This document shows, piece after piece, positions 3,242 to 18,827 of a stretch of 64,000 bases of DNA. The stretch lies in NCBI GenBank assembly GCA_025934735.1, contig JAICWP010000004.1:186001-250000 (forward strand). Reading direction: 5' to 3'. Source of the stretch: Terriglobales bacterium. Its GTDB lineage: Bacteria > Acidobacteriota > Terriglobia > Terriglobales > Acidobacteriaceae. Every line of letters starts with the position of its first letter. Within the stretch, counting starts at the first letter, position 1. The position numbers and the translations under genes are program-made. The notes under the pieces were generated by a model. The model searched no databases and had not been told where the DNA came from. It worked only from the letters and a program-made list of their open reading frames with translations.

Positions 3242-4065
3242 TGGCAACTCCCGAACTCATCCGCGACCACTACGATTCGCTGGCGCTGGTTTATCGCGCC
3301 TTCTGGGGCGATCATATTCATCACGGTCTGTTCGAGCGCGGCGATGAAACACCCCATGAGGCTCAAAGCGCGCTTCTGGACTACTGCCTCAAGCTGGTGC
3401 AGCCGGCCCCAGGATCCGCTGTTCTTGACGCAGGTTGTGGTCATGGCGCAACCGCCGTCCGCCTGGCGCGCGAATTCGGTTGTCAGGTTGTGGGGCTGAC
3501 TATCAGCGGAAAGCAAGCTTGCCTGGCACGGGAGAATGCCCAACATGCCCGGGTGCAGCAACGAACCCTATTTCTGGTGCAGGATGCGGAGACATATGGC
3601 TATCCGTGCGAGCAATTCGACCTCGTGTGGACCATGGAATCGTCGGAACATTTTTTGGACAAAGAGCGTTATTTTCACAACGTGGCCTCAGCGCTGAAGC
3701 CGGGCGGCCGTGTGCTGCTGGCCGCCTGGACAGGAAGCATGGATTCGGCCCGCGTGGGTGCGGTGGCCGCTGCCTGTCTCTGCCCCGCTCTATGGACAGC
3801 ACAACAATATCGGGACGGCATCGAGCATGCTGGGCTGCAGATTTCGTATTGCGAGGATTTAACGGCCAAAGTGAGGCGCACCTGGGAGGTCTGCCGCCAA
3901 CGGGCCTGGGCGGCGCGCGTCGCGGTGGCCCTGCTGCCTCGACCGGCACGCGAGTTTGTGGAAGGAATTGATCTTATACTTGCTGGCTACGGCAGCGGCG
4001 AATTGAGCTATAGCGTAATGAGTGCGATCAAACCGTTCGCCGGATCAGGAGAGTGCGATGGCTGA
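3241..4065 (+). CDS. Class I SAM-dependent methyltransferase
   Basis: This 274-residue protein has the SAM-binding motif I VLDAGCGHGA, an acidic motif II region (VGLTISGKQ), and the post-motif WTMESSEHFLDKERYFHN seen in gamma-tocopherol / sarcosine-dimethylglycine-type methyltransferases. The N-terminus (IRDHYDSLALVYRAFWGDHIHHG) also matches that small-molecule methyltransferase branch. The substrate cannot be told from sequence. It overlaps thiO by one base upstream and the OsmC-like gene by eight bases downstream, so the three are very likely translated from one message. A link to glycine or sarcosine metabolism is a guess based on ThiO next door. Confidence 0.8.
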   Translation: MATPELIRDHYDSLALVYRAFWGDHIHHGLFERGDETPHEAQSALLDYCLKLVQPAPGSAVLDAGCGHGATAVRLAREFGCQVVGLTISGKQACLARENAQHARVQQRTLFLVQDAETYGYPCEQFDLVWTMESSEHFLDKERYFHNVASALKPGGRVLLAAWTGSMDSARVGAVAAACLCPALWTAQQYRDGIEHAGLQISYCEDLTAKVRRTWEVCRQRAWAARVAVALLPRPAREFVEGIDLILAGYGSGELSYSVMSAIKPFAGSGECDG

Positions 4066-4531
4066 ACCCGTTTACGTTTCCCAGGTTCGCATTGAGCGGC
4101 AAACCGGACCCGTTCGTGTTGCCCACCTGCCAGGCGAGTCCCAGCCTGTTATCTTCAGCGTTCATGGAGCCATTGCTGAGCACTACGGAATGGATCCCGA
4201 TCGCCTGCCCGGCTCGCATGCCGCCACGCTCGACTACGTGGTCGCGGCGCTGGGCGGTTGAATGCTGGGAACCTTCGGGGGCGCGCTGGAGGCGCGCGAG
4301 ATTAACGCGAGCGACGGACGTTTAGTTGCCGAGGTGCGCGGCGAAATCGAAAGTGATGGCGGGGTGCTCGTGATCCGCCGCGTGCACGTGAAATTCCAGC
4401 TGCGGGCAGCGGAGGAGGCGCGGGCAATAGTTGAGCGGGTGCACGGAGTGTACGCGCAAAAGTGCCCGGTGTACCGGACGCTGCAGCCGGCCATGCAGAT
4501 TACTTCTTCCTACGAACTGGCGCCGGAATGA
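4058..4531 (+). CDS. Selenocysteine-containing OsmC-family protein (Sec at first Cys position)
   Basis: OsmC/Ohr proteins are thiol peroxidases that use two cysteines to reduce hydroperoxides. The frame starts at ATG 4058 after CAGGAGAG, meets an in-frame TGA at 4259-4261 (codon 68) and continues without other stops to 4531, giving 157 residues, close to the family length. The residues around TGA, YVVAALGG-U-MLGTFGGALEA, match the OsmC helix AALGGCLLGTF, with U replacing the peroxidatic Cys. The second Cys is intact at about residue 136 (KCPVYRTL). Neither half alone is a complete OsmC fold. A GC-rich hairpin with a TGGAG loop starts 20 bases after the TGA, as expected for a bacterial SECIS. 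Alternatives are two separate small proteins, a pseudogene or a sequencing error. The formate dehydrogenase and second OsmC in this window support true selenocysteine. Confidence 0.85.
4281..4297 (+). promoter_or_regulatory. Putative bacterial SECIS hairpin (OsmC-like gene 1)
   Basis: The stem GCGCGC (4281-4286) and GCGCGC (4292-4297) encloses the loop TGGAG. The loop begins 26 bases after the TGA at 4259-4261 and has G at its second position. Bacterial SECIS elements need a loop roughly 16-37 bases downstream with G among its first two bases. A GC-rich self-complementary stem could arise by chance, so the position and loop G are the main support. Confidence 0.6.
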
Positions 4532-17054: not shown

Positions 17055-17756
17055 ATGATCACCCTGCGTCCCGCTGAAGAGCGCGGACAGGCCGACTTCG
17101 GCTGGCTCCATACCCGTTATACTTTCTCGTTTGCCGATTACTACGACCCCGAGCACGTGCAGTTCCGCAGCCTGCGTGTGATTAACGAGGATCACGTGGA
17201 TCCCGGACACGGCTTCGGCACTCACCCTCACCGGGATATGGAAATCATTACCTATGTCCTGGAAGGCGCGCTGGCGCACAAGGACAGCATGGGGACGGGT
17301 TCGACCATCCGCCCAGGCGAAGTGCAGCGCATGAGCGCCGGAACTGGCGTGATGCACAGCGAATTCAACCACTCGCCATCCGAGGAAGTGCACCTGCTGC
17401 AGATCTGGCTTCTACCCGAGAGCAAGGGGATTAAGCCCAGCTACGAGCAGAAGGAGTTTCCTCGCGAGAGCAAACTGAATCGTCTGCGCCTGGTGGCCTC
17501 GCCCGCAGGCGACGATGGTTCCGTAACCATTCACCAGGACGCGCGTCTGTATGCTTCTGTTCTGGAAGAGGGCAAAAGCGTGCGCCATGAAGTGGGCAAG
17601 GGCCGCTACGCCTGGCTGCAGGTGGCGCTGGGCGAAGTAACACTCAACGGTGCCATGCTAAAAGCCGGCGATGGCGCTGCCGTGGAGCGCGAAGCCGCAC
17701 TGGAAATTACCGGCCACGCGCCCAGTTCGGAATTCCTGCTATTTGATCTGGCGTAA
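17055..17756 (+). CDS. Pirin-family protein (YhaK-like quercetinase)
   Basis: This 233-residue bicupin has the pirin signature: [62 protein letters not shown] (metal His-His-Glu), and [24 protein letters not shown] (fourth ligand). Related enzymes oxidise quercetin in vitro; others act as redox-responsive regulators. The physiological substrate is unknown. The start is set by AAAGGAGG upstream of ATG 17055. Its placement between MarR and DoxX is a recurrent stress-related arrangement. Confidence 0.92.
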
Positions 17757-17846: not shown

Positions 17847-18329
17847 ATGCTACGTAAACTTCTGTACACCAACAACGATGCGGTTCTCACTATCGTTCGG
17901 CTTGTCCTGGGCGTCGTGTTCTTCGCTCACGGCGCCCAGAAGATGCTGGGCTGGTTTGGGGGTTATGGCTACGGCGCCACCATGGGATTTTTTGAGCACA
18001 ACGGCATTCCTGCAGGGTTCGCGTTCCTGGCGATTGCCGCTGAATTCTTTGGCGGGATCGGATTGCTGCTGGGGCTGCTCAGCCGCGTGGCTGCCTTTGG
18101 CATTACCTGCAACATGATTGTGGCCATCGCCACTGTTCACCACCATTTCGGCCTGTTCATGAACTGGACTGGCCAGCAGAAAGGGGAAGGCTTCGAATTT
18201 CACCTGCTGGTGCTGGCGATTACTTTCCTGATCATGGTTCGTGGGGCCGGGGCCTTGGCGCTCGACCGGCTGTTGAGCCGGAATCTCTCTGAGAAAGGTG
18301 AATCCAGGCCGCTGGCGAGGGCGGTTTAG
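17847..18329 (+). CDS. DoxX-family membrane protein
   Basis: This 160-residue integral membrane protein has four hydrophobic segments and the DoxX family features RLVLGVVFFAHGAQKMLGWFGGYG at the start and AIAAEFFGGIGLLLGLLSRVAA in the middle. DoxX homologues are linked to quinone-dependent oxidations and, in other bacteria, to a membrane complex against oxidative stress. AGGAGATGAACT precedes the ATG. It follows the pirin gene by 90 bases and probably shares its MarR control. Confidence 0.88.
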   Translation: MLRKLLYTNNDAVLTIVRLVLGVVFFAHGAQKMLGWFGGYGYGATMGFFEHNGIPAGFAFLAIAAEFFGGIGLLLGLLSRVAAFGITCNMIVAIATVHHHFGLFMNWTGQQKGEGFEFHLLVLAITFLIMVRGAGALALDRLLSRNLSEKGESRPLARAV

Positions 18330-18386: not shown

Positions 18387-18827
18387 CTACTGTTTTACTT
18401 CTACGTCTACTTTTACTTCTGGGGTCGCAACTGCGACCGTGCCGTAGAGCGGTCAACGCTGCTTGAACGCGCTTATCAGGCGCTCACCCTCCTGCCGGCT
18501 CACTCCTTCCAGCCGGAATTTCACACGCACGGAATTGAGCAGGCTCACGTCGGGACGGACTGGCCGCGAGCGATCCTGCGTGCTGGTAATCTCCACCGCC
18601 ACCTTCTTCAGCGGCAGTTGCTCGCTTTTGGCGATCACCTGCACCAGTTCCACGCCACACGCCGCAACCGCCGCCAGAAATACTTCTACCGGAGTGATCT
18701 CCTCGCCCGGACAGCCATTCTGCTCTGGCCCATCCACCACCACGTGGTGGTTGCGGGCACTGCACAGCACCCGCCCAAAGGTTTCCGTCGAAGCCGCACT
18801 CACCGTGTACTGCCGCACCTCGGCCAT
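18387..18827 (-). CDS. Selenocysteine-containing OsmC-family protein (Sec at second Cys position)
   Basis: A simple ORF call stops at TGA 18453-18455 after 124 residues, at AFKQR, leaving the OsmC fold without its last strands. Reading TGA as Sec continues as U-PLYGTVAVATPEV and stops at TAG (18387-18389), giving 146 residues, the normal family length. UPLYGTV aligns with the OsmC C-terminal motif CPVYRTL, so U125 replaces the second Cys. The first Cys is present as Cys57 (AAVAACGVELV). The 68-residue spacing equals that between U68 and C136 in the OsmC-like protein at 4058-4531. A perfect 6-bp hairpin follows 14 bases after the TGA. The gene lies 60 bases downstream of the RND pump on the same strand. 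A truncated pseudogene is the alternative, but the continued family match past the stop argues against it. Confidence 0.85.
18423..18438 (-). promoter_or_regulatory. Putative bacterial SECIS hairpin (OsmC-like gene 2)
   Basis: On the minus strand GGTCGC (18438-18433) and GCGACC (18428-18423) form a perfect 6-bp stem around the loop AGTT. The loop begins 21 bases after the TGA and has G as its second base, as expected for a SelB-binding bacterial SECIS. Confidence 0.65.

Follow-up and report, generated by a model that had tools for sequence, protein, structure and literature searches.

Overall Organization of the Locus

The window analyzed here, a stretch of 64,000 nucleotides from a Terriglobales bacterium, carries on its reverse strand a gene for an OsmC-fold protein (positions 18387–18827) that is very probably a selenoprotein. 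The gene starts with the ATG at 18827–18825 and consists of 146 codons followed by a TAG at 18389–18387. Codon 125 (18453–18455, reverse strand) is a TGA, read here as selenocysteine (Sec, U). Up to this codon, the open reading frame (18827–18453) translates into 124 residues; with TGA read as U, the product has 146 residues, with U125 in its C-terminal part, QRUPLYGTVAVATPEVKVDVEVKQ. The 21 codons after the TGA (18390–18452, reverse strand; PLYGTVAVATPEVKVDVEVKQ) cover helix 126–134 and the last strand, 137–145, of the predicted fold. Cys57, the first conserved Cys (codon TGT, 18657–18659, reverse strand), aligns with the peroxidatic Cys of Ohr. The translation agrees in coordinates and reading with the original prediction, which had placed a TGA interruption at 18453–18455 and let the frame run on to the TAG. 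Standard gene calling would truncate the gene at this TGA. Six OsmC-family genes are found in the genome of the window, two of which contain one internal TGA; both lie within the window.

On the opposite strand, a pirin-like and a DoxX-like ORF (17055–17756 and 17847–18329, named by eye) adjoin the gene. Neither is in a cluster common to other loci among the ORF clusters listed. Across 37 related loci (see below) and the window, several of these loci being short, the ORF clusters include no near-universal neighbor. The two largest clusters are the truncated ORF of the gene itself (17 loci) and a frame overlapping that gene (11 loci), followed by a receptor-like family (7 loci) and a dehydrogenase-like family (4 loci), both named by eye. 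In these 37 loci and the window, no widely conserved neighbor hints at a substrate or a reductant.

Codon 125 among Relatives

Relatives were collected by scanning genome contigs with two N-terminal peptide patterns lying outside the TGA region, which yielded 37 loci. All of them keep the motif around codon 125, with TGA in 32 and Cys in 5. Their titles name Acidobacteria, Beta- and Deltaproteobacteria, Gemmatimonadetes, Actinobacteria, Thermoleophilia, Chloroflexi, and similar groups, and nearly all of the loci are MAGs. A search of 397 genomes of the order gave eight matches with at least 64% identity, the window's own genome included, all eight with TGA at the same codon, and a search of 396 genomes of the phylum gave eight matches above 100 bits, four with TGA and four with Cys. 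The pattern loci and the genome-search matches, minus nine duplicates (L053–L057, L061, and L090–L092), make up 44 distinct genes, the gene of the window included. By record titles, these genes are spread over six phyla (Acidobacteriota, Pseudomonadota, Myxococcota, Gemmatimonadota, Actinomycetota, and Chloroflexota). Two loci titled Bordetella parapertussis (L073 and L075) are MAGs (TH-11nov19 isolates), and because their copies group with those of Betaproteobacteria MAGs, the species given in the title is doubtful. A plasmid search returned six records with 26–27% identity, all from Enterococcus and none belonging to the Sec-OsmC subfamily.

Codon 125 is TGA in 35 of the 44 distinct genes and Cys in 9, the two states anticipated for homologues; TAA, TAG, or any other residue occurs in none. 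Likewise, none of the 44 genes ends at codon 125, so that relatives with a real stop at this position were not seen. The frame past this codon ends 20–27 codons on in every gene. The motif UPL[YF]G[TS] is present in 35 of 35 TGA genes, the copy of the window being UPLYGT, and 15 of the 35 also use a TGA to close the frame. The nine Cys homologues support the earlier claim that Sec occupies the position of the second conserved Cys of OsmC proteins. On a tree of the 44 genes, built with the codon-125 column left out, the U and C states require four changes, of which the well-supported branches alone force only one. Both states occur within the Gemmatimonadota/Myxococcota part of the tree.

A SECIS-Like Hairpin Downstream of the TGA

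A hairpin with a perfect 6-bp stem (GGTCGC/GCGACC) and the loop AGTT, noted in the original prediction, is indeed present at 18438–18423 on the reverse strand, with 20 nt from the TGA to the loop. The passages on bSECIS elements in a 2026 review give, as rules i–iii, a loop of 3–9 nt, a stem of 4–16 bp, a G at one of the two leading positions of the loop, usually as N1-G-[GU]-N..N2 with N1 pairing with N2, and a distance of 16–37 nt from the UGA (PMC13188914). The hairpin conforms to rules i–iii as worded there (loop 4 nt, stem 6 bp, distance 20 nt; PMC13188914). In the TGA genes, the loop is AGTT or GGTC, i.e., N1-G-U-N2, and N1 and N2 covary as A-U or G-C.

Across the 35 TGA sequences, the 6-bp stem and the loop-closing pair are paired in 245 of 245 cells. 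Two-sided, compensatory changes are found at four of the seven pairs (GC/CG in 14 sequences, GC/CG in 2, CG/UA in 5, and AU/GC in 14), giving 35 two-sided cells, as compared with a shuffled mean of 11.9, and no one-sided cell. The covariation score is 0.386 versus 0.144 for shuffled alignments. Of 500 shuffles, 0 came up to the alignment in the percentage of paired cells, in the count of two-sided cells, or in covariation score; the other two of the five measures are unremarkable, namely the number of two-sided pairs (4; reached by 38/500 shuffles) and of further pair types (4; 500/500). When the partner columns were slid by 1–3 positions, pairing fell to 17–71%. RNAalifold recovered the same 6-bp hairpin and a short stem starting from the TGA itself.

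For a single gene, the hairpin is weak evidence, because six Watson–Crick pairs arose in 10,903 of 100,000 synonymous shuffles of the window gene (10.9%) and the fold z-score of its 51 nt is only −1.28. A by-product of coding would therefore be plausible here, but this explanation is rejected by the TGA genes as a set, since 35 of 35 have six Watson–Crick pairs, against 3.64 expected with shuffled synonymous codons. Conservation of the hairpin was thus confirmed, and loss of the hairpin with retention of the TGA was seen in 0 of 35 genes. What the protein alone imposes can be read from the Cys genes: their stem cells are paired in 43 of 54 cases because the protein constrains that DNA, and none of the nine has six Watson–Crick pairs (0.93 expected under synonymous shuffling), two being fully paired when G-T pairs are counted. 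Fourfold sites just past codon 125 are conserved in TGA genes and not in Cys genes. In TGA genes, their identity is 0.69 in codons +1 to +10 versus 0.41 elsewhere (Mann–Whitney p = 2.3e-5), and in Cys genes, it is 0.45 versus 0.58 (p = 0.97).

These data bear on the alternative that translation really ends at the TGA, the product has 124 residues, and the similarity downstream is a leftover of decay. Standard annotation does end at the TGA, and the use of TGA as the terminal stop in 15 of the 35 TGA genes shows that it can end this frame; yet the downstream codons are kept in 44 of 44 genes, codon 125 is TGA or Cys but never TAA or TAG, the hairpin carries compensatory changes, and a fold ending at residue 124 would miss its last strand. 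The true stop or pseudogene was rejected on the preserved downstream frame and the compensatory changes, and we regard it as barely conceivable.

Selenocysteine Insertion Machinery

The genome of the window contains selA, selB, selC, and selD. Its tRNA-Sec scores 70.6 bits and is also called tRNA-SeC by ARAGORN, and the profile scores of SelB, SelA, and SelD are 351.5, 554.4, and 365.9 bits, respectively. The SelD gene of this genome (L151, G000:C5:142434-143372) has an in-frame TGA (AAGUASKL), and because of this TGA, SelD looks like a selenoprotein as well, judging from its sequence.

For the relatives, a tRNA-Sec threshold of 60 bits was applied instead of the family cut-off of 47, because second-best tRNA matches reach about 51. 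A tRNA-Sec of at least 60 bits is present in 27 of the 35 TGA genomes, and SelB is over its cut-off in six of the other eight. The remaining two, G761 (1.7 Mb) and G775 (3.1 Mb), have neither; these assemblies are perhaps incomplete. Among the Cys genomes, eight of nine have a tRNA-Sec of at least 60 bits. The ninth (L085, Gemmatimonadetes) has neither such a tRNA nor SelB over the cut-off, and its gene (L085:5998-6438), which has a Cys codon in place of the TGA, retains five of six stem pairs and the loop GGTC. On this sequence pattern, the L085 hairpin is likely the relic of a SECIS element in a genome that has lost its Sec system. Across the phylum, 133 of the 199 genomes examined have SelB over the cut-off; since it is so common, the machinery is only weakly diagnostic, i.e., supportive but not decisive.

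The TGA might instead be read as another residue such as Trp, through stop reassignment or read-through suppression. Beyond the open frame, nothing speaks for this reading, and the nine genes without TGA have Cys, not Trp, in every case. Moreover, 15 of the 35 TGA genes close their own frame with TGA, and the full set of Sec genes is present; both facts speak against reassignment. The Cys partners at codon 125 and the terminal TGA led to rejection of this reading, which is as improbable as the true stop. Collectively, the Cys/TGA alternation at codon 125, the paired and covarying hairpin, the fourfold-site conservation, and the Sec machinery genes make it very probable that the gene encodes a selenoprotein. 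Both the SECIS-like hairpin and the complete Sec-insertion gene set also back the claim of Sec at the second OsmC Cys, and we are highly confident that Sec is inserted at codon 125 to give the full-length product of 146 residues.

Family Assignment and Predicted Fold

The protein belongs to the OsmC family PF02566, with a score of 42.7 bits against a cut-off of 27.5. None of the matching NCBIfam models reaches its cut-off. The best is NF041052 (OsmC_like_Se), with 33.7 bits against 95, aligned over residues 23–136; the Ohr model TIGR03561 scores 26.9 against 88.85, HydprxOhrVib 24.7 against 240, and PRK10738 12.7 against 138.

An AlphaFold2 model computed from 38 aligned proteins has a mean pLDDT of 84.4 and a pTM of 0.73. 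In this model, helix 126–134 and strand 137–145 lie wholly past the TGA, with block-mean pLDDT values of 92–95, and U125 is predicted at the break between helices 111–124 and 126–134. The earlier claim that reading through the TGA restores the end of the OsmC fold is thus supported by the predicted structure, which regains its last helix and strand. Structural comparison (Foldseek and VIA-align) placed OsmC/Ohr-type chains in the best rows. The best 33 rows, with Z values of 9.9–15.0, are chains of this type or, in the case of 2egt and 1ml8, chains that are not so named.

Cys57, Arg19, and Glu48 are invariant in the 38 aligned rows. Profile alignment to two Ohr chains puts Cys57 on the peroxidatic Cys and U125 on the resolving Cys, the roles of the two Ohr residues being those given in the portions of the literature consulted on Ohr (PMC5962072). 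The column of the catalytic Glu of Ohr (PEQLF) is occupied here by Ala, Val, Pro, or Gly, and the invariant Glu48 comes one residue later. With no Glu at the Ohr position, activation of Cys57 in the manner of Ohr becomes uncertain.

Comparison with Known OsmC-Like Proteins

To date, an OsmC-like selenoprotein with the motif UxxT has been reported from the Sargasso Sea, as the passages on it in four sources describe (PMC1088965, PMC2398784, PMC9312934, and PMC13188914). As far as these passages go, the protein of the window shares with it the OsmC superfamily (COG1765/PF02566), a single in-frame TGA, and a predicted SECIS element. Its motif differs: in U-P-L-Y-G-T, position +3 holds Tyr and Thr comes only at +5, so that UxxT is not matched. 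Here, U is at the site of the second Cys and the first Cys is kept; the distinction from the UxxT protein is one of motif and not of the site of the published U. NF041052, named OsmC-related (seleno)protein, is the closest NCBIfam model, yet its score lies far below the cut-off. Among 297 genomes of the phylum, this model gave one match over the cut-off, without TGA, and five weaker matches among those listed hold one TGA.

With Ohr, the protein shares its predicted fold (Z values of 9.9–14.3 for the chains so named) and the alignment columns of both redox residues. Differences are the replacement of the resolving Cys by Sec, the shift of the catalytic Glu by one residue, and the low TIGR03561 score. 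YhfA-type OsmC proteins come into view through the structures that match best, 2egt and 1ml8 (Z 15.0); we take 1ml8 to be E. coli YhfA and PRK10738 to be the YhfA model. The PRK10738 score (12.7 versus 138 bits) sets the protein apart from this type. YhfA is said, in the part of the source that treats it, to be without the Arg and Glu of the Ohr type (PMC8945050).

Under the rule set out in the corresponding passage of the 2026 review, which covers 119 families and subfamilies, a different Sec position defines a distinct subfamily (PMC13188914). In the text of that review at hand, the word OsmC occurs once, with UxxT (PMC13188914). By this rule, and with the motif UPLYGT instead of UxxT, the gene appears to represent a new subfamily among the OsmC-like selenoproteins, judging by its sequence. 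The gene could also be a member of the published UxxT family. Its Pfam family, PF02566, is the same as in the part of the review table concerned (PMC13188914), but the motif, in which Tyr stands at +3 and Thr follows at +5, and the OsmC_like_Se score of 33.7 against 95 argue against membership, which we consider improbable. In the open literature on OsmC and selenocysteine, published alignment figures aside, no description of Sec at the second OsmC Cys was found in the text portions covered (PMC1088965, PMC2398784, PMC13188914, PMC9312934, and PMC2673044), and the word OsmC is absent from the text covered of PMC12013277. The original prediction had held that no OsmC with Sec at the second position was described; the portions covered yielded none, but OsmC-like selenoproteins as such (UxxT) are already in print. 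This is likely the first OsmC with Sec at the second position, with the UxxT protein compared by motif rather than by the site of its U. If so, a selenoprotein subfamily spread over six phyla by record titles would be added.

Proposed Roles of Cys57 and Sec125

A working scheme can be drawn from Ohr, which, according to the section cited, reduces hydroperoxide via an intramolecular disulfide and serves as the model for function here (PMC5962072). SelB carrying Sec-tRNA(Sec) would bind the hairpin just after UGA125 and insert Sec, and translation would then run on through the last helix and strand, so that the folded protein would contain the redox pair Cys57–Sec125. On the pattern of Ohr, a peroxide would oxidize Cys57, and Sec125 would attack the resulting sulfenic acid to form an intramolecular selenenylsulfide, which may be reduced by a lipoyl- or AhpD-type dithiol donor. 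As the resolving residue, Sec might speed up resolution and shield Cys57 from over-oxidation, and its predicted place at the break before helix 126–134 may favor the selenolate. Without selenium, the product would be a 124-residue stub that lacks the last strand and probably would not fold. The protein most likely works through the Cys57–Sec125 selenenylsulfide; we infer this chemistry, the substrate, and the selenium content by analogy.

Within this pair, the division of roles in which Cys57 attacks and Sec125 resolves is reasonably likely. The roles might be swapped, with Sec125 as the peroxidatic residue, activated by its place before helix 126–134, and Cys57 as the resolving one; the protein would still be a selenoprotein. 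Selenoperoxidases usually attack with their Sec, which counts for the swap, but the invariant Cys57, Arg19, and Glu48 in the 38 rows look like a preserved first-Cys active site. Because the Ohr Glu column is not kept and U125 lies at the helix break of the model, the swapped arrangement keeps a minor share of the probability. Doubtful, too, is a fuller version, in which the gene belongs to a widespread, undescribed OsmC-fold subfamily whose selenium sits at the former resolving site, now attacking, with the order of the Ohr/OsmC cycle inverted, and which coexists in the organism of the window with a second Sec-OsmC bearing selenium on the opposite partner. For the pair as such, Cys57 as the attacking residue and Sec125 as the resolving one is the assignment preferred here.

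A Second OsmC Paralogue with an In-Frame TGA

The second OsmC gene with an internal TGA, related but separate, lies at 4058–4531 on the forward strand (PF02566, 47.7 bits). Its TGA replaces the first Cys (ALGGU68MLGTF), and CPVYRTL is kept. It thus resembles the gene at 18387–18827 in its superfamily, its conserved TGA, and a hairpin just downstream (by eye), and differs in having Sec at the first Cys with the second Cys kept, where gene 18387–18827 has Sec at the second. Two OsmC paralogues of one genome with Sec on opposite redox partners would allow the gain from selenium to be compared between the attacking and the resolving position.

At E 1e-15 or better, the paralogue has matches in 24 of the 397 genomes of the order, a count that takes in its own genome. 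In 22 of these, the match contains one TGA, that of G116 also having a TAA; of the other two, the match in G271 is split around residue 68, and that in G256 spans only residues 91–156. G210 carries a further, incomplete copy that covers residues 1–84 and is free of stops. From 20 fetched loci (L153–L172), six genes were readable by motif search; all six keep the TGA, U-x-x-G-T, and CP[VL]YR, and a G+C-rich hairpin follows the TGA in these loci (by eye). These features suggest that the paralogue is very likely a selenoprotein. At the thresholds used, only the window's own genome, among the 397 of the order, has strong matches to both Sec-OsmC genes, as the other seven genomes with orthologues of gene 18387–18827 are absent from those 24.
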